Both the position numbers and the translations under genes were made by a program. The notes below the pieces were generated by a model that worked only from the letters and a program-made list of their open reading frames with translations, had not been told where the DNA came from and made no database searches. Below are positions 1,336 through 10,577 of a stretch of 25,781 nucleotides of DNA, one piece after another; within the stretch, counting starts at the first letter, position 1; the number at the start of each line of letters is the position of its first letter. The stretch lies in IMG/VR virus record IMGVR_UViG_3300027573_000298, positions 1 to 25,781 of that record; one strand, given 5' to 3'. The DNA is from a virus.

Positions 1336-1530
1336 ATGAACGAACTCGGATTAAAGATTGCAATCGCGCAGCACATTAGTAAGCTGCGCGAACTCGCAAA
1401 GGATGCGGAAGATTTTACAATCCGATTGCAAGCTGCCGCATCCGAACTAGAACACCGTTACAGATTACTAAGGGAGCAGACGAATGACGACACACGTATT
1501 GACGGACGAACAAAAGAAAGCAGTCGCTGA
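1336..1530 (+). CDS. Hypothetical small helical protein, 64 aa
   Basis: I do not recognise this protein. The central region (residues 12-48, around HISKLRELAKDAEDF and ASELEHRYRLLREQ) looks like a continuous amphipathic helix or short coiled coil. The ribosome site is weak (GAG a few bases before the ATG). The last 47 bases overlap the start of the acidic-protein gene in another frame, and that gene's strong ribosome site lies inside this one, suggesting coupled translation. No function can be assigned. Confidence 0.55.
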   Translation: MNELGLKIAIAQHISKLRELAKDAEDFTIRLQAAASELEHRYRLLREQTNDDTRIDGRTKESSR

Positions 1531-1846
1531 GCTGTTAGGATTGGAACTCGAAGCCGTTCCTTCTTCAATCGAATTGGAAGATGAAGAATCAAACGAGGAC
1601 GAAGATGAGGAAGTAGACGAGGACGAGGAAGAAGATGAAGATGAATCCGATGACGAAGTCGAGGATTCAGATGAAGATGACGAAGAGGACGATTCGGAAG
1701 ATGAAGAAGAGGATTCAGATGATGAAGATTCGGATGCAGAGGAATCAAGCCTAGCAGTTCGTGTTCAGGAAGCAACAGACGAATGGTACGCAAAGCATCG
1801 TGAAACCATTTCGCTTGCAGACTTCCTCAAGACGAAGGGTTTCTAA
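1484..1846 (+). CDS. Extremely acidic Asp/Glu-rich protein, 120 aa
   Basis: AAGGGAG at 1469-1475 is a strong ribosome site eight bases before the ATG. Residues 1-28 form a short helical head (DEQKKAVAELLGLELEAV). Residues ~30-88 are an almost unbroken tract of Asp and Glu with scattered Ser. Residues 89-120 return to ordinary sequence ending in SLADFLKTKGF. The two ordinary ends argue that this is a real protein rather than a random purine tract. Highly acidic phage proteins can act as DNA mimics or bind basic host proteins, but that is only a possibility here. The DNA is a purine-rich GAA/GAT/GAC-type repeat on the + strand. An intrinsic terminator follows directly. Confidence 0.75.
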   Translation: MTTHVLTDEQKKAVAELLGLELEAVPSSIELEDEESNEDEDEEVDEDEEEDEDESDDEVEDSDEDDEEDDSEDEEEDSDDEDSDAEESSLAVRVQEATDEWYAKHRETISLADFLKTKGF

Positions 1847-1855
1847 GTTACAACA

Positions 1856-1886
1856 GGATGCTCGACTCAATATCGAGCATCCTTTT
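1856..1886 (+). terminator. Intrinsic terminator after the acidic-protein gene
   Basis: A perfect 10-bp stem, GGATGCTCGA (1856-1865) with TCGAGCATCC (1873-1882), closes a 7-base loop and is followed by TTTT. It begins ten bases after the acidic gene's stop. Downstream genes either use read-through or a separate promoter. Confidence 0.8.
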
Positions 1887-1905
1887 CGTGCATAAGGTAT
1901 TCACT

Positions 1906-2337
1906 ATGAACCTACCAGAAAAGTTAAGAGCGGAACTACAGAAGGAGTTCCTATTCGACAACGAACTCCTAGCACCGGCATGTTTATTCCATCAGCTCGA
2001 CGAAGGGAGGATACTAATCGTACTAGCTCCACCCATTAAGCAAGGGATTCCTGAACTGCTCATTACCAAATCAATGCGCGCACGAGCCGATTTGATTGTG
2101 CTCATCCTTCCATCGGACACCTCAACTGAATGGTTCAACAAAGCATTCGCATCTACTGGTAATGGAAAGGTAACACTTCGACCAATTCAAGGTCGCGTCA
2201 AGTTTGTGAATGAGGATGGTGCTGTTAAAAGAGTTCCAGCGTGCATGATTATCTTTAAGAATGCAGCTGAGCTTGCCCGTATTGAAGACCAAGAACGCGC
2301 ACAAGTCTACGCGAATGAAAATATTGGTCGCATGTAA
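1906..2337 (+). CDS. Degenerate phage Dam-type adenine methyltransferase-like protein
   Basis: A 143-residue protein. The ATG at 1906 has TAAGG eight bases upstream; an in-frame ATG at 1858 lies inside the terminator stem and is rejected. The segment ADLIVLILPSDTSTEWF (61-77), then IQGRVKF (94-100) and PACMIIF (111-117), follow the conserved order of the phage N6-adenine methyltransferase family (PF05869, roughly LLPADTSTxWF, then xGRxxF, then a final hydrophobic strand). The catalytic N/D-PP-Y/F motif is replaced by APPIK (41-45), and the N-terminal cofactor region is reduced. By family knowledge, such a protein should not methylate DNA; it may bind DNA or another protein, or be a relic kept for other reasons. 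It lies directly upstream of the polymerase gene. Confidence 0.6.
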   Translation: MNLPEKLRAELQKEFLFDNELLAPACLFHQLDEGRILIVLAPPIKQGIPELLITKSMRARADLIVLILPSDTSTEWFNKAFASTGNGKVTLRPIQGRVKFVNEDGAVKRVPACMIIFKNAAELARIEDQERAQVYANENIGRM

Positions 2338-2354: not shown

Positions 2355-4760
2355 ATGGAAACACGTCAAGTAGAACTAAGAATCGACGTTCCAGGAGAAG
2401 GGAATGCTTCAGCCGATATCGTTATCGTTGGTGAGGCACCGGGTGCTGAGGAACAACGAACAGGCAAACCATTCGTTGGGCCTTCAGGTTATCTATTGAA
2501 CCAACTATTGCAACAAGCGGGTATAACCCGAGCTGAATGTTGGGTAACGAATGTTGTAAAGACAGAACCACCGAAGGTAATTAAAGCTGGCAAGACGGTC
2601 TACGATATTCATGCAACGAAAGGATATGATGGATATAAAGAATATCTCTTCGAAGAAATCAAGACAATCAATCCTAAAATCATCCTCGCCCTTGGGAATG
2701 TGGCCTTACAAGCTCTCACTGGAAATAGTGGAATCACTCAATGGCGTGGAAGTATTCTGCACTCTGAACGACTTAAAAGGCGAGTCATCCCAACCTACCA
2801 CCCCGCGTACATTCTCCGTTCTGATTCCGCTATCGACCGCTCCGTTGCAGAATTCGACATCCGAAGATTGGTACAAGAAATAGATGGCAAGCCAACCCCA
2901 CAAAGAAATCTTGTTGTCATACGGGATAGCGCACAACTCTATCGATATATTGACCGATGGAAGGTCAAGCCCCTCGCCGCAAGCGATATCGAGACTTATA
3001 AGTCAATTCCGAACTGCATTGGATTCGCAACTTCTTCACATGAAGCTATCTCAATTCCTCTCTTCAACGAACTTTGGGGCGTCAAGTTTGGAAATTACTC
3101 TCAACGTGAGCTTGCAGAATTTTGGAAATGTGCCGACATACTATTGCGAAGTAAGCGTATCATCGGTCAAAACTGGAAGTTTGACGAAGGAAAGCTGAGT
3201 CAACTTGGATTCAAGATACCAAACTTCCATGCCGATACGATGCTCATGGCGCATACGCGCTATCCTGAATTACCTAAGGGCTTAGCTTTCCTTGCATCGA
3301 TTCACACCAGAGAACCTTATTACAAATTGGAAGGGAAGGAGTTTAATCCTAAGAAGGATTCGGCAGACAGGTTGTATCTGTACAATGGCAAGGACTGTGC
3401 AGTAGACTATGAGATTTTCGAGACATTGGACAAAGAACTCGAAGACTTTGGTGTTAGAGAGTTCTATTATAACTTTGTCCATCACCTTCACGCGCTCTAC
3501 CTTGGCATCGAACGGCAAGGCATTCTATGTGACACTGAGGTGCGAGCGGCGTTAGAAGAAAAGTATAAGGTTCTCATGATGGAGAACCAATTTGAACTGG
3601 AGAATCTCATTGGACATCAAATCAATGTTAGCTCACCCAAACAAATTGGACAGCTCATCTACAACGAACTTAAACTCCCTGTCCGAGATGGAACTGGAGA
3701 AGAAGTTCTTGTTGCACTACAAGCAAATCATGGAGAAAGGAAACCTCAATGCATTCCTATCATTGACAGGATTCTTAGAGGACGTACTATTAGAAAAACC
3801 CTCGGGACTTACATCGAGGCTTGCCCGGACTATGATGGACGGTACCGAACAAGTTATCAGATTGTGGGTACTGAGACCGGAAGAACTTCAACACAAACTC
3901 TTAAACCTCCATCTCGCCCTGAGCCAATTGGACTTGCATTTCAAACCATAACAAAGCATTCCGAGATGGGCGCGGATGTTCTCAAGATGTTCGTAGTTGA
4001 CAAGGGTTATGTATATCTTGAAGCCGACTTATCTCAAGCCGAAGCGCGCGTTGTCGATTTGTTATGCGAAGATTACGAAGGACTTGAAGAGTATGGTAAG
4101 ATTGATAAGCACGCTAAGACAGCGCGAATCATTTTATCATTAGGTGCAGACTATGTAGTTCGTAAAGGAAGTCCTGAAAGATTCCTAGGAAAAACTTCAA
4201 GACATGCAGGGAGCTATGATATGGGTAAAGGACGTGCGATGCTCACGTTCAATACCGATGCGAAGAAATATGGTATCGACCTTCATGTTAGCGAGTGGAA
4301 AGCCGGCCAAATCCTGGAGAAATTCCACAAAGCGTACCCTAAAATTAGAAGCGTCTTCCATGTAGCAGTTCAAGATGCGTTAGCTGCAAATGAAAGAACA
4401 CTAACAACACCGTTCGGCCGCAAAAGAACGTTCGGCGGCAGATGGGGCGACCAACTTTTTAAAGAAGCATACGCTTTCATTCCACAATCTACGGTCGGTG
4501 ATTGTGTCAAGCGTGCGATGTTATACATCAAGCACGAGATACCCGATTGCCGTATCGTGATGGAAAAGCATGATGCTATCGGTGCGCTCATCCCTGTAAA
4601 CGAGGTAAGAGAACACGCTATCGTTTTCAAGAAAGGACTTGAGATGCCCATCGACTTCGCTTGTTGCTCGATTCCTCGGGGTGTTTTAATTATCCCTGCC
4701 GAGTTTGAAATCGGTGAGAAGAACCTACATGATTTGAGAGACTATAAGCTGGAATCATGA
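2355..4760 (+). CDS. Uracil-DNA glycosylase / DNA polymerase I (family A) fusion
   Basis: An 801-residue replicative polymerase. The ATG at 2355 has AAGG five bases upstream; the ATG at 2343 has no site. Residues ~20-175 match family 4 uracil-DNA glycosylase: GEAPGAEE (26-33), GKPFVGPSG (37-45) and YHPAYILR (148-155). None of the usual four iron-sulphur cysteines is present, and the CRPP position reads TEPP. Residues ~185-370 are a 3'-5' exonuclease with all acidic residues intact (D211-I-E213, NWKFD with D277, YNGKD with D347). The rest is a family A polymerase: TETGRTST (506-513), motif A DLSQAEAR with D558, O-helix R609-K613-H617-Y621, and motif C with H739-D740. The His replaces the Phe762 position of E. 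coli Pol I. There is no 5'-nuclease domain. The stop codon overlaps the next start (ATGA). Confidence 0.93.
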   Translation: METRQVELRIDVPGEGNASADIVIVGEAPGAEEQRTGKPFVGPSGYLLNQLLQQAGITRAECWVTNVVKTEPPKVIKAGKTVYDIHATKGYDGYKEYLFEEIKTINPKIILALGNVALQALTGNSGITQWRGSILHSERLKRRVIPTYHPAYILRSDSAIDRSVAEFDIRRLVQEIDGKPTPQRNLVVIRDSAQLYRYIDRWKVKPLAASDIETYKSIPNCIGFATSSHEAISIPLFNELWGVKFGNYSQRELAEFWKCADILLRSKRIIGQNWKFDEGKLSQLGFKIPNFHADTMLMAHTRYPELPKGLAFLASIHTREPYYKLEGKEFNPKKDSADRLYLYNGKDCAVDYEIFETLDKELEDFGVREFYYNFVHHLHALYLGIERQGILCDTEVRAALEEKYKVLMMENQFELENLIGHQINVSSPKQIGQLIYNELKLPVRDGTGEEVLVALQANHGERKPQCIPIIDRILRGRTIRKTLGTYIEACPDYDGRYRTSYQIVGTETGRTSTQTLKPPSRPEPIGLAFQTITKHSEMGADVLKMFVVDKGYVYLEADLSQAEARVVDLLCEDYEGLEEYGKIDKHAKTARIILSLGADYVVRKGSPERFLGKTSRHAGSYDMGKGRAMLTFNTDAKKYGIDLHVSEWKAGQILEKFHKAYPKIRSVFHVAVQDALAANERTLTTPFGRKRTFGGRWGDQLFKEAYAFIPQSTVGDCVKRAMLYIKHEIPDCRIVMEKHDAIGALIPVNEVREHAIVFKKGLEMPIDFACCSIPRGVLIIPAEFEIGEKNLHDLRDYKLES

Positions 4761-5965
4761 GTTGGCTGAATATGCTCATGTCGCAAACACAAGACTTAGA
4801 ATCGCCGCGCCGTTATTTTTACTTCGCGGGGCTCGGAGTGTTGTCTGCTATAGTAAAACGAAACGTGTTCCTTGACAGAGGGGGAGCATATAAGTTATAT
4901 CCAAACGTGTACATCATGCTCATCGGGCCATCTGGTATCAAGAAAGGTTTGCCAATCAAGGTCGCTGAGAAGTTAGTTACGGACCTCAACGTTACAAAGG
5001 TTATCGCTGGGAGAAGTAGCATCCAAGCAATCATTGAGAACCTCGGGCATCAAACAATGAATAAAGATGGAACAGTTAGCAAAGACGCCACAGCGTTCAT
5101 TGTTAGCGGAGAGTTTAGTCAATCAATCTTAGAAGACCAACAAGCATTGACAATTCTCACGGACTTATATGACTCACAATACAAAGATACTCATACAAAT
5201 TTGCTTAAGTCCGGAAAATCTATCCTTCGCAATGTGTACCTCAGTATGCTTGGCGCTAGCAACGAGACCCATCTTCATGCTGTCATTGGCCAGCGTGATA
5301 TTATGGGTGGTTTTATTGCTCGTACGCTTATGGTGTCTGAGAACAAACGAAATAGAAAGAATTCTCTGGTACGGCGGACGGCGAATACAATTGATTACGA
5401 GGGACTATCTGAATACCTCAAGACAATTTCGTGCTTGAAAGGTGAGTTTCAGTATACACCGGAGGGAGCAGACTTCTATGAAGAATGGTATCAGGAATAC
5501 GAACCGAACGAGGACGATACAACAGGCACCGCGATGCGGTTTCCAGATACCGTTCTCAAGGTGGCGATGTTGATATCGATGGCAAGGGGTACAGACCTAC
5601 TCCTAACCACTGAGGACATTCAAGAATCGATATCAGTATGTGCGTCATGCATGACAAATGCACAAGTCGTCACGAACAATTCTCCAGGCGCGACCACGAC
5701 ACCGATTGCTAAACAAACGGCGATTGTGTTTGAGGCTTTGTTAAAGGCTGAATCGTTTTCGATGCCACGCATCTTGATGTTAAGACGACTATGGCGACAC
5801 TTAGATGCATTTGAGTTGACGCGAATAATGGATACTCTGAAAGAGGCGAACGTGGTACGTGAGGAACAAGAGAATAGAGAGACGTACTACACGCTTCAAG
5901 ACCACGTGATTGCAGAGTATCGTAAGAATACAATGGCTGAAACGCGCGTACTCAAGTACAACTAA
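4757..5965 (+). CDS. DUF3987-like replicative helicase/primase-associated ATPase
   Basis: A 402-residue P-loop protein whose ATG overlaps the polymerase stop (ATGA), so the two are translationally coupled. The N-terminus has SPRRYFYFAGLGVLSAIVKR, then a Walker A-like loop GPSGIKKG (57-64), a Walker B-like strand AFIVSGEF (113-120), a polar strand LSMLGASN (162-169), and GGFIART (184-190) with a candidate arginine finger. This order resembles DUF3987 (YfjI-like) proteins, which often replace DnaB-type helicases beside phage polymerases. The final Ser/Thr of the Walker A motif is Gly here, which is unusual. The C-terminus is winged-helix-like and ends near a terminator. The role in unwinding or primase loading is inferred from context. 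Confidence 0.65.
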   Translation: MSWLNMLMSQTQDLESPRRYFYFAGLGVLSAIVKRNVFLDRGGAYKLYPNVYIMLIGPSGIKKGLPIKVAEKLVTDLNVTKVIAGRSSIQAIIENLGHQTMNKDGTVSKDATAFIVSGEFSQSILEDQQALTILTDLYDSQYKDTHTNLLKSGKSILRNVYLSMLGASNETHLHAVIGQRDIMGGFIARTLMVSENKRNRKNSLVRRTANTIDYEGLSEYLKTISCLKGEFQYTPEGADFYEEWYQEYEPNEDDTTGTAMRFPDTVLKVAMLISMARGTDLLLTTEDIQESISVCASCMTNAQVVTNNSPGATTTPIAKQTAIVFEALLKAESFSMPRILMLRRLWRHLDAFELTRIMDTLKEANVVREEQENRETYYTLQDHVIAEYRKNTMAETRVLKYN

Positions 5966-6020: not shown

Positions 6021-9000
6021 CTACTTCTCACCCGGTATAGCAACGGAACTACGCCCTCCCTTTTTCTTCCGTTTCTGCTGTGCCGTAGTCTCCACTTCCC
6101 TTGCAATACCACGGCCCACGTACGGAACCCGTTGTAATCCCCATCGCCCTACGTCTCGATAGTTACCTCGTAATGTGTTGATGGCGAGTCCACCGATACC
6201 AGCGGCTTCATCAACCGCATAGTTTGTGCCCCGCATCATATTGAATGCAGCTTCGATGGGGTCAGGGTCGTCCCAGTTCTCAGCGATTGAAGTCATGTAA
6301 TCGGTTGGAATACCGAGAGCAAATGCTTGCTCAAGGTTGCCAAGCCCATGTACAATCCCTTCATTCTTTGCGAGCTGAGGGTCTACCTTACCTAACCACT
6401 TCCTTGTAAACGCGAACCTATCGCTAGGGTCAACCGTCTCACTCTGCCCAATGTTGTTCTTATATTCCGTGAAGAAATCTTTATCTTCATCGGTCATACC
6501 CAACATCTGCTGCGCTGAGTTAGTGCCAACCTGCGCACCCGTCTTGACTACTTCTTTCGTATCGCCAATCAATTCACCCAGAGACATACCAATCGCTGCC
6601 AATTTGACAGCTCTAGTAGGATTCTCTTTAATCGCGTCCTTCATCGTCTTCGTAGTCTGGAACGCGGTACGCATGAACGTTTGAGGAATTCTCAGTATGT
6701 CGTTACGTACCCATCCGTGCGGCAAGTTTACGTTTGCCATCGAGCCCTGAGTTAAATCGGCCATGCGAATCATCGCACGTTCGAGTTGGTCTTGACTCAG
6801 TTCAGTTTGCCGAACGAGCTGCTCGGGCGACGTAAAGGTTAAATCTTCAAGTTCTCGTCTCGCCTTCTTGTTTGCAGGATTCCGTTTCAGTTCATCAAAC
6901 AAAATCCGAGCGTATGAATTACCTGTCGCACCGGCGACTCTATTCAAGTAGTTTTGTGTACCCTCAATTCCAAACACCTTGTACAGGAAGTTCTTATCGC
7001 CTAACGTCTCAGCGAATCCACCGCTGAACTGGCGGAACGTCCCTACGTTATTCATGAACTTAGCATCGGGGTCCGTGTTACCCTTGAATGCTTTCAATAA
7101 CGCAGGCCCTGCATCTCTTAGTCTTCCCTTGACTGCGATGGGTAAGACACCGCTGATGTTTGAAATTCCCGCTAGCGAAAGCTGCGATGCTGTAGCCCAT
7201 ATCCTCGCGGCTCCAACTAGCGATTTCTGACGACTCGATACACCTTCAGCTTCGCCTCTGATAGAACGTTGCGCAAGGTTTCTAGCACGTTCGGGGTCTT
7301 CAGCTTTTGCAACGAGCTTGGAAATAGCAGACGTTTCATCCTGCAAGTCTAGCTTTCCATACGCATTCGCTTCCTCAACACGACGAGCTGAATTGCGAAG
7401 ATGGTCAACGAATACGTCCATGTCCTTACGATAACCTGGAACATTCAAGTCGTTGCGCCTGAACTCCTCACCAATCTTTCGTTCGCGACTCGCAGCAATA
7501 TCTTTGATGCGCTTGTTGATTACATCGTCAGGTAAACCTTGCTTCTTCATTGCATCAATCAAGGTCTGGTCTGGCACGCCTTCATATCGATGCGTCCAAT
7601 AGTTTGCGCGCTTCTTCTCAATCAAGCCCGCATTGACCATCTCATCGCCAATCATATCATTGATGGCGCGCATCTTATCGCCAATTTCTCTTACTTCCTC
7701 AGTAGGGTTCGCGTTGTTCCCTTCTAAGTAATCAACAATCTGCTCAAACGTTTTAGGGTCTTTCTTCAGTCGTTCTAAATCTTCAACGACAGGATTGATA
7801 TAGCGATTGAATCGACGCGCCGCATCCGTATTGGTACGTTCAATGAGCTGGCCAATCTCTCTACCCACCGGACCCATGCGTTTGAATTCCTCACGCATCG
7901 CCATCGAGATATCATTCTTAAACTTAGCGATGGCTCCGATTGGCTTTGGTCCTAAGCCCGCTTCATCCCTTAAACGCGCAACAATCCTATTGCGCATTTC
8001 AACGGGAGTATTCGGGTCTTGAACCATCTTCTTGAGCTTACGCATTACATCGGGACCAAGCTGTCGATTCGCCCTATCGATAGCCATTCCCGGGTCGATG
8101 CCATCATTCTTCGTCACGTTCTTAAGAATGTCTTCCATCCATGCGCGATGCGCTTCTTCTTGCTGAATGGAATTCTGATATCGCTCAGGATTCTTAGGTA
8201 CGAAGTCACCACCCGATTCACCCGGAGGCAATACATCTCGTCCACCTGGCGGTACAGTTCCTCCAGCTCCACCCGTACCAGCCGTAGGTTCGACAGGACG
8301 CCCACTTGGAATAGTTTCACCCGTCGATGCGATACCCGGAGGTAATGCACTTGGGTCTACACCTTGCGTTACAGACCTTAACGGCGTACCCGTTGCAGTA
8401 GTTGTTTCAGGAACTAAACCAGCAGGTAACGAATCGTCAGCTGCGCCAGTAATTGATGCAGGCAATGCTTCTTCAACTTGTGCAGCACCGCGCTCACCAA
8501 ACGAAGTTATTCTATTGCCCTTACCAGCTTCGTTCGCAGGGTCAAGAATAATCAAGACTTGATGCGGTGCCTTACCCGTTCGCTTACCACCCGTATGCGT
8601 CATTGCATCGTATCCTAAATCGGATAGCGCATAACGCATATCATGGAACGTCTCAGTCAATTCAGACTTCGAGATGTTCAAGCCTTCGCCCTGCTCAAAT
8701 ACTTCATTCGCAATCGCACGCCAATACGCTTCGGTTGTCGTGCCTTCTGGCAATGCTTTAACTGAGTCCATTTCAAAGCCAATGGATTCTAAGCCTTCTA
8801 CCTGCTTGTCTAATGCTGAGCGCACCTCTGGCGTGATTGGCTTTTCTAAATCGAGAACCTTCTCAACGTTTACCTTAGCTTCATATACCGTTGGTGTCTT
8901 AGTTCGCTTACCTCTCGCCGCAGCATACCCTTCCGATATCTTATCTGCATCGGTAAGATATACACCTGAACCAAACAACCCATCGATTTCAGTACGATAA

Positions 9001-10577
9001 GGGTCAAGCGTTTCAGGCGTTAAGCCCTTTGTGCCTGTCCCATGATACCACGTCTTTTCGTTAATCTTAACGGGGTCGTCACCAACGTGCTCAATAATCT
9101 TGGGAGCAGCTAATGCTTCAGCAGCAACATTCTTACCCGCTTGAACGTTCTCACTCGTCGCTTGAAGTTGTGCGTTAGTAACAGGTGATTCATTCCAAGG
9201 TGCATTAGTTGCGAAATTCTGTAATTTAGCCTGTTCGCTTGGTGTAAGCGGAGGTGGCTGCTGACTATCCGGTAATGCTTCCCATGCATTCGGATTCATC
9301 TCACCTTCTTTAATCGGGCCTAAATCATCCATAGCTACCGCTGGAGCAGTAGGCACGTCGGTTCTAATAGGAACTGGAGCATCATCTGTAATCTGCGAAC
9401 CAATTCCCCTATCGACTGGCCGCGCGCTCATCTGCGTAGGAACGCTAGAGAAGCCCTTACGAATTTCACGCGCAGCGGTGCCTACATCGGGGTCAATGAT
9501 TCCTAGACTCTGAGCAAGACTTAAGTCACGTTCATTTAATTCTAATGCAAACAAACTTGCTTTCGATTTAGTTGTACGCTGTTCAGGAGTAAGGTCTTTT
9601 AACCCTTCAGCAACCCTATCAACAGCGCCCTGTAGCCTAGTTAATGATTCTTGGTCTGCACGTACAGGCCCACCACGTCGAGCCTGTGCCATTAACTCAA
9701 CGTCGCCACCAGACTTAACGGCAAACTTCTCACTTGACTCTAATGCAGGCGTCCAGAATGGATTGTTAGGGTCCGTACCTTTCGGTGCTTTAACTTCTCG
9801 TGAACTAGGCTGAACACCTGTTTCATCGACAGCTTTTGTAGGCGGCGGCATGTCAACCGGCCGGCTTGATAATGGAAGCTTTGCATCAGGGTCGAAGCCC
9901 TTTGCTTTCATCTCAACATCGGCCAGCTCTTGAACCTTACGCTCTGCATCTTTCTTGTACAAGCCCTCAAAGTAATCATAAGGCTTGCCCGATGCACCAT
10001 ACAAACTTGCACCAGCGCCTAACGCATCGAACGCAGCTTTCCCATATCGACCTTGTTTCAGGTCTTCTAAAGTTTCAGCACTCATGCGCGCGCCCTGCGT
10101 AAAGTCTAAACCACGCGCAATATTCTTCACACCCTCAGCCACCTTTGGTGCATACTTTGCAACCTTAGGTCCATACTTAGCTAACAGTTCTGGACCCTGA
10201 TATGCAAACTTTGCAAGCGGAACGGTGCCCAAAGATGCCGCAGTCGTCGCTGCACGGAAAGGTGAACCACCTGCGATATCAGCTATACCATACAATCCAC
10301 GAGTCAACGCAGCTGTAGGATAACCTAATCCAGGTCCTCCACCCCATCCAACTTCTTCCATCTTGGCTAAGTCTGTGTCCTTATACTTTGGGAGCCAAGA
10401 GTAATCGAGCGTCTCATCAAACCATTTCGTCCCGCGCTGAATTAAACCTTCAGTCGCTTTCTTTCCTTTGCGCCCACCCGCGCTTAAATCGTTATAAATA
10501 TCCGATGCCTGCTGGCCATAGCTATCCCCTTCGAGATTGCTAAAACCAAACAAATCCCACATGGAATCTCTAGGCAT
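6021..10577 (-). CDS. Giant polyvalent internal virion protein with ADP-ribosyltransferase-like domain
   Basis: A 1518-residue protein and the last gene of the late operon. The ATG follows the previous stop by two bases, with GAGG upstream. A glycine- and alanine-rich partly hydrophobic region (residues ~85-155) is followed by a long proline-rich, low-complexity stretch. Residues ~505-690 hold a probable ADP-ribosyltransferase fold: WYHGTGTKG with H512, GSGVYLTD with Y540, and a later IILDPAN strand. This resembles the ART domains of phage polyvalent proteins. After another Pro/Gly linker, residues ~820-1110 are charged helices. Residues ~1190-1360 resemble a large polyvalent protein-associated C-terminal domain (LPD38-like), with NSYARILFDELKRN and hydrophobic helices. 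The tail is basic (QKRKKKGGR). Such proteins are usually packaged and injected with the DNA; the ART target is unknown. Confidence 0.75.
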   Translation of the reverse strand: MPRDSMWDLFGFSNLEGDSYGQQASDIYNDLSAGGRKGKKATEGLIQRGTKWFDETLDYSWLPKYKDTDLAKMEEVGWGGGPGLGYPTAALTRGLYGIADIAGGSPFRAATTAASLGTVPLAKFAYQGPELLAKYGPKVAKYAPKVAEGVKNIARGLDFTQGARMSAETLEDLKQGRYGKAAFDALGAGASLYGASGKPYDYFEGLYKKDAERKVQELADVEMKAKGFDPDAKLPLSSRPVDMPPPTKAVDETGVQPSSREVKAPKGTDPNNPFWTPALESSEKFAVKSGGDVELMAQARRGGPVRADQESLTRLQGAVDRVAEGLKDLTPEQRTTKSKASLFALELNERDLSLAQSLGIIDPDVGTAAREIRKGFSSVPTQMSARPVDRGIGSQITDDAPVPIRTDVPTAPAVAMDDLGPIKEGEMNPNAWEALPDSQQPPPLTPSEQAKLQNFATNAPWNESPVTNAQLQATSENVQAGKNVAAEALAAPKIIEHVGDDPVKINEKTWYHGTGTKGLTPETLDPYRTEIDGLFGSGVYLTDADKISEGYAAARGKRTKTPTVYEAKVNVEKVLDLEKPITPEVRSALDKQVEGLESIGFEMDSVKALPEGTTTEAYWRAIANEVFEQGEGLNISKSELTETFHDMRYALSDLGYDAMTHTGGKRTGKAPHQVLIILDPANEAGKGNRITSFGERGAAQVEEALPASITGAADDSLPAGLVPETTTATGTPLRSVTQGVDPSALPPGIASTGETIPSGRPVEPTAGTGGAGGTVPPGGRDVLPPGESGGDFVPKNPERYQNSIQQEEAHRAWMEDILKNVTKNDGIDPGMAIDRANRQLGPDVMRKLKKMVQDPNTPVEMRNRIVARLRDEAGLGPKPIGAIAKFKNDISMAMREEFKRMGPVGREIGQLIERTNTDAARRFNRYINPVVEDLERLKKDPKTFEQIVDYLEGNNANPTEEVREIGDKMRAINDMIGDEMVNAGLIEKKRANYWTHRYEGVPDQTLIDAMKKQGLPDDVINKRIKDIAASRERKIGEEFRRNDLNVPGYRKDMDVFVDHLRNSARRVEEANAYGKLDLQDETSAISKLVAKAEDPERARNLAQRSIRGEAEGVSSRQKSLVGAARIWATASQLSLAGISNISGVLPIAVKGRLRDAGPALLKAFKGNTDPDAKFMNNVGTFRQFSGGFAETLGDKNFLYKVFGIEGTQNYLNRVAGATGNSYARILFDELKRNPANKKARRELEDLTFTSPEQLVRQTELSQDQLERAMIRMADLTQGSMANVNLPHGWVRNDILRIPQTFMRTAFQTTKTMKDAIKENPTRAVKLAAIGMSLGELIGDTKEVVKTGAQVGTNSAQQMLGMTDEDKDFFTEYKNNIGQSETVDPSDRFAFTRKWLGKVDPQLAKNEGIVHGLGNLEQAFALGIPTDYMTSIAENWDDPDPIEAAFNMMRGTNYAVDEAAGIGGLAINTLRGNYRDVGRWGLQRVPYVGRGIAREVETTAQQKRKKKGGRSSVAIPGEK

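Follow-up and report, generated by a model that had tools for sequence, protein, structure and literature searches.

A phage family A DNA polymerase with an N-terminal uracil-DNA glycosylase domain that lacks the Fe-S cysteines and keeps the uracil pocket

Fusion of a uracil-DNA glycosylase (UDG) to a DNA polymerase is already known and is widespread: it was described in SPO1 and Shbh1 (PMC5135824) and is present in the polymerase of phage phiLo (PDB 9qhs), and UdgX molecules in the PDB are named “phage SPO1 DNA polymerase-related protein”. A role of the SPO1/Shbh1 domain in processivity has been suggested, as cited in PMC5135824, and vaccinia D4, a UDG fold that likewise serves a viral replicase, is a polymerase processivity factor (PMC10253040). 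In family 4 UDGs and UdgX, the residues corresponding to UdgX E52, N91 and H178 contact uracil or activate the nucleophile (PMC10359453). According to PMC5295032, the activity of Cys-to-Ser family 4 enzymes fell by only about 40%; the cluster is thus dispensable for the chemistry in these mutants, and its loss need not mean a dead enzyme.

The DNA analyzed here (hereafter, the window) is a stretch of 25,781 nucleotides, positions 1 to 25,781 of IMG/VR record IMGVR_UViG_3300027573_000298. It is part of a 44.4-kb contig (G001), to which it is mostly 100% identical (99.98% over a 4.4-kb piece), and the ends of this contig overlap, thereby indicating a probably circular genome. The window encodes a polymerase in which a UDG fold precedes a 3′-5′ exonuclease and a family A polymerase (PolA) in a single chain (Table 1), the domain order also seen in SPO1-type and phiLo polymerases. 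The start codon is probably the ATG at 2355, the fifth codon of the open reading frame, because the related loci L004 and L005 begin there. The Pfam UDG model (PF03167) matched residues 17–163 with 101.9 bits (E 4e-29; cut-off, 24.3), which excludes a chance match, PF00476 (DNA_pol_A) matched residues 403–766 with 104 bits, and phrog_17, annotated “DNA polymerase”, covered residues 18–802, with the UDG part lying within it. All three exonuclease motifs (DIET, NxKFD and YxxKD) were found and are conserved, and D215, E217, N277, D281, Y347 and D351 were invariant or almost so in 19 sequences. In the full-length predicted model (pLDDT 89.5), residues 184–803 matched Klenow-type polymerases, such as 1kln (Z 31.9). 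The N-terminal part of Pol I is a 5′-nuclease. Since the remainder of the protein corresponds to the Klenow type, the UDG domain would occupy the place of the 5′-nuclease in host Pol I. The original prediction of a UDG fused in front of a polymerase therefore stands, with an exo+ family A enzyme as the partner, but the arrangement is not unusual, as the fusion has long been known and a search of other phages gave 59 phage-collection records matching the UDG part. The window fusion is thus a cluster-free form of a known phage polymerase architecture, commoner and less exotic than had been thought.

Table 1. Coordinates of the polymerase, its domains and motifs, and other genes mentioned in the text (positions in the window unless a locus is given)
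Feature	Position	Strand	Basis
UDG - 3′-5′ exonuclease - family A DNA polymerase, 805 aa	2343..4760	+	ORF, PF03167, PF00476, phrog_17
UDG-fold domain, residues 11-184, without Fe-S cysteines	2373..2894	+	AlphaFold2 model, structure match
Motif A GEAPG, residues 30-34	2430..2444	+	E31 invariant 65/65
GKPFVG, residues 41-46	2463..2480	+	F44, uracil-stacking Phe, invariant 65/65
C66, only Cys of the domain, not at a ligand column	2538..2540	+	conserved 63/65
T69 and N70, within TNVVK (69-73)	2547..2552	+	invariant 65/65
TEPP (74-77) and predicted beta-hairpin (strands 78-81, 84-87), replacing Fe-S cluster loop	2562..2618	+	
Motif B YHPAYILR, residues 152-159, H153 catalytic	2796..2819	+	H153 and P154 invariant 65/65
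3′-5′ exonuclease domain (DIET, NWKFDE, YNGKDC)	2901..3452	+	conserved motifs, Klenow-like fold from residue 187
Family A polymerase domain: motif A D562, motif B K617/Y625, motif C H743 D744	3510..4751	+	
DUF3987 primase/helicase-like replication gene, immediately downstream of polymerase	4757..5965	+	PF13148, phrog_14296
Small gene upstream of polymerase	1858-2337		
Acidic 120-residue protein	1484-1846		
SNF2-type helicase, early region of G001	L113:4025-5593		
Clostridial UDG pair	L170:1022-1597 + 2585-3196		
Clostridial UDG pair	L177:3908-4513 + 4459-5130		
Clostridial UDG pair	L180:7911-8483 + 8452-9042		
Clostridial UDG pair	L193:7872-8519 + 8488-9096		

The UDG domain was modeled by AlphaFold2 with a pLDDT of 90.1. 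Its best structural match was the family 4 UDG of Thermus, 1ui1/1ui0 (Z 24.1; rmsd 2.0 Å over 164 residues; 40% identity), and 1ui0 was also the closest solved relative by phmmer (E 1.7e-27). Family 4 enzymes as a whole (TthUDGa 1ui0/1ui1, TM0511 1vk2 and S. tokodaii 4zbx) gave Z 23–24 and UdgX structures Z 22–23.6. Values were lower for 2d3y, listed as a Thermus UDG, which we take to be the second, family 5 enzyme of that organism (Z 17; family 4 value, 24), and for TDG/MUG (Z about 14). The family 4 motifs that the original prediction had read at the polymerase N-terminus were all located: motif A follows the family 4 pattern GE(A/G)PG, motif B carries HPA (HPAYILR, 153–159), and the Phe of PFVG and the TN pair are likewise common to the two. 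E31 corresponds to E41 of Thermus UDG and E52 of UdgX, N70, with a role in uracil recognition, to N80 and N91, respectively, and H153 to H178 of UdgX; with F44, they form a catalytic quartet (EFNH) that is complete in the window protein. The signatures of family 5 (UdgB) are GLAPA, HPSPLN and a 4Fe-4S cluster, in place of which the window domain has GEAPG, HPAYIL and no ligands. The NCBIfam model TIGR00758 scored 124.0 bits, just below its cut-off of 125.3.

The domain differs from family 4 UDGs, apart from the polymerase fusion, in the region of the cluster. As originally predicted, the four cysteines for 4Fe-4S are absent and the CRPP position reads TEPP: when aligned with four-Cys enzymes, the ligand columns carry V, E, T and Y, and the sole cysteine in residues 1–186, C66 (AECWVTN), lies outside them. 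The N-terminal CxxC segment is missing as well; the upstream open frame, 8 codons to the stop, contains no Cys, and thus no such segment can be part of the polymerase protein. Shifted or upstream cysteines were accordingly rejected, and the structure prediction and alignment, which could have overturned the prediction, gave no other fold. The cluster loop is lengthened, with a hairpin predicted at residues 78–87 from the AlphaFold2 secondary structure. From the Asn (N70) to the next conserved Pro (P111), the median spacing was 33 in four-Cys cellular enzymes, 54 in the Cys-less phage fusions and 42 in Clostridial Cys-less paralogs. Because the defining Fe-S cluster is absent, we do not class the domain within family 4; judging by its pocket, it would work like a member of that family. 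The N-terminal domain probably descended from a family 4 UDG that lost its cluster by dropping the CxxC segment and swapping the cluster loop for a longer hairpin or loop.

Cysteine-free domains were also found in cells: among 86 cellular UDG domains scored, 68 had four Cys, 14 had none but kept EFNH, and four had some; nearly all of the 14 were Clostridial stand-alone proteins. The Clostridial paralogs (L151, L170, L180 and L193) share with the window domain the absence of ligands, the quartet and the lengthened loop, but they are stand-alone genes, often next to a four-Cys copy, whereas the window domain is part of a fusion. Such neighboring pairs of family-4-type genes, in which a four-Cys copy lies beside a Cys-less paralog that retains the catalytic residues, were observed at several Clostridial loci (Table 1), including L176 and L185; the open frames overlap in three loci.

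A scan of IMG/VR with the UDG alignment returned 236 relatives, and the best 80 of the 236 were analyzed. Among these, all relatives that reached far enough were UDG–exonuclease–PolA fusions, except for one frameshifted gene and a few short open frames, and in none were the four ligands complete. In 65 sequences, comprising the window and relatives at about 36–82% identity to it, 17 columns were invariant, and E31, F44, N70, R135, G136, S137 and H153 did not vary. Since the TN motif forms part of one search pattern, this sample carries some bias, and sampling was therefore repeated with the polymerase part alone. The UDG domain was present in 75 of 80 loci so obtained; in the other five the frames begin at or near the contig end, and the domain thus occurs in all loci that cover the N-terminus. 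Each of the 60 distinct domains in this polymerase-only sample had at most one of the four ligands, and none could bind a cluster. The quartet was kept in 49; when placed on the polymerase tree, the 11 deficient domains require some seven independent losses, in which the domain itself was retained. One of the 11 is a frameshifted contig (L009/L039/L202; IMGVR_UViG_3300044699_000060), in which the frameshift lies within the UDG part and probably reflects an assembly error or a pseudogene. A rough dN/dS for the UDG part was about 0.05–0.16, of which only the order of size counts because dS is near saturation. The UDG part is under purifying selection. Degenerate sites in 11 of 60 domains, the frameshifted contig included, might suggest a functionless relic drifting to loss, but purifying selection contradicts this explanation, and the low dN/dS, the invariant columns and the presence of the domain wherever the N-terminus is covered make it scarcely credible. 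The large tree suggested two independent cysteine losses, but a single Cys-less clade withstood an AU test (p 0.82), and the cysteines may have been lost once or several times.

What is new here is a large lineage of environmental phages whose copies all lack the cluster and mostly retain the catalytic residues: no earlier description was found in a literature search for Cys-less family 4 UDGs, a weak negative, as subscription journals were poorly covered. We tentatively propose, at less than even expectation, that an active Fe-S-free UDG in the replicase of this lineage constitutes, with the Clostridial paralogs, an undescribed branch of family 4. The lineage amounts to a natural experiment on the purpose of the Fe-S cluster, in which the ligands were lost and the active site was kept in dozens of divergent phages.

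Other fusions combine cluster and active site differently. Four Cys and EFNH are both retained in phiLo, ctfzr933, ctLwi270, vir526 and StAshley; the phiLo polymerase (MH673673, L011), the UDG part of which superposes on that of the window with Z 16.3, has the ligands as CNSC...C...C. The fusions of Serbin, PMBT14 and P744 retain four Cys with the site DGPH, and that of LysYB1 (L023) retains them with DMGH; in the SPO1-like SBSphiC (L024), the site is DMAG with 1–2 Cys left, most of both having been lost. The degenerate residues of SBSphiC and LysYB1 differ from the intact quartet of the window. UDG–PolA fusions of Serratia, Pseudomonas and Yersinia phages (L019, L020 and L021), with a dead-looking DGPH and four Cys, show the reverse of the window case; they adjoin dCMP/cytidine deaminase and thymidylate-synthase-like genes.

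Retention of the domain where the pocket is destroyed suggests that it serves primarily in holding DNA or the polymerase, and the repeated loss of the quartet indicates that catalysis is not needed by every member. The domain might even be purely structural, a UDG fold that merely grips DNA or packs against the exonuclease for processivity, with pocket residues that serve DNA or backbone binding and not base excision. Its presence in 75 of 75 loci covering the N-terminus, despite about seven losses of catalytic residues, is consistent with this, as are the degenerate sites of the SPO1-type (DMAG, DMGH) and Serratia/Pseudomonas/Yersinia (DGPH) fusions, the suggestion published for SPO1/Shbh1 and the vaccinia precedent. 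D4 itself is a family 1 UDG and a separate subunit that acts via A20 with a family B polymerase, unlike the window fusion. A pure grip, however, would not be expected to keep exactly the uracil-contacting residues, which are invariant in the 65 Cys-less sequences and intact in 49 of the 60 polymerase-only domains, and we regard this explanation as possible but doubtful.

We consider it on balance somewhat probable that the protein is a replicative exo+ PolA bearing a family-4-derived, cluster-free domain that holds and scans DNA, has a working uracil pocket and probably excises uracil. By analogy with vaccinia D4 and SPO1/Shbh1, the domain would be mainly a DNA-binding or scanning module that keeps the replicase on DNA, and it may scan the template for uracil. 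Since the complete pocket is retained in the window phage and most relatives, these would most likely still recognize uracil and probably excise it beside the point of synthesis, thus coupling excision to replication. Consistent with a dispensable cluster, Fe-S-free, EFNH-intact UDGs also occur as single genes in Clostridia; against excision, uracil cut from the template strand at the fork would give rise to a synthesis-blocking abasic site.

Recognition could also take other forms. Tight binding without cutting had been put forward originally, and a UdgX-like suicide binder would fix the polymerase to uracil through a covalent bond. UdgX structures are a close match (Z 22–23.6), the loop after TEPP contains IH (residues 89–90), and E52, N91 and H178 of the M. 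smegmatis enzyme have equivalents here; however, the window domain has GEAPG and not GEQPG, lacks the KRRIH R-loop and the Fe-S cluster, and scored 118 bits with the NCBIfam UdgX model (cut-off, 190). Moreover, near relatives carry K (L005), T (L006) or G (L007) instead of the loop His (DIH, residue 90), so that no conserved covalent His is present, and binding in the UdgX sense is very improbable. A sensor that stalls the polymerase at uracil but leaves the base uncut, comparable to the archaeal family B read-ahead pocket, would suit an intact pocket placed before a polymerase, but E31 and H153, chemistry residues in family 4 and UdgX, are also invariant, suggesting catalysis rather than binding alone; we therefore consider a sensor unlikely. 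Why some phage replicases bear a UDG domain is an old question, which is now testable because site-intact and site-dead versions coexist in one polymerase lineage. A cluster-free, uracil-reading polymerase domain could also serve amplification.

A replicative role is suggested by the replication gene cluster, in which the DUF3987 gene adjoins the polymerase; a Sak4-like annealing protein, an SNF2-type helicase and a PD-(D/E)XK nuclease are encoded elsewhere among the early genes. The proposed link to DNA containing dU was not borne out: dUTPase was missing from all 9 records searched, among them the probably circular 44-kb phage genome, and no thymidylate synthase (TS) was detected in the Cys-less lineage (30 IMG/VR records). 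With neither enzyme detected, dU or modified-base DNA in the window phage was rejected. TS homologs occurred only in 7 phages, all from other fusion groups. Among four-Cys and SPO1-type fusions, 5 of the 7 phages carrying a TS homolog had a degenerate UDG site, as did 3 of the 6 lacking one; these numbers are small and confounded by descent, and no link between TS genes and dead UDG sites is therefore claimed.

Two small genes lie upstream of the polymerase. The nearer resembled phage Dam methyltransferase weakly and in part (23.5 bits, below cut-off) and has no DPPY-type motif; it may be what is left of a methyltransferase or a fold put to another use. The other, situated in the early region, encodes a very acidic protein with 57 D/E and 7 K/R, possibly a DNA mimic or a low-complexity protein.
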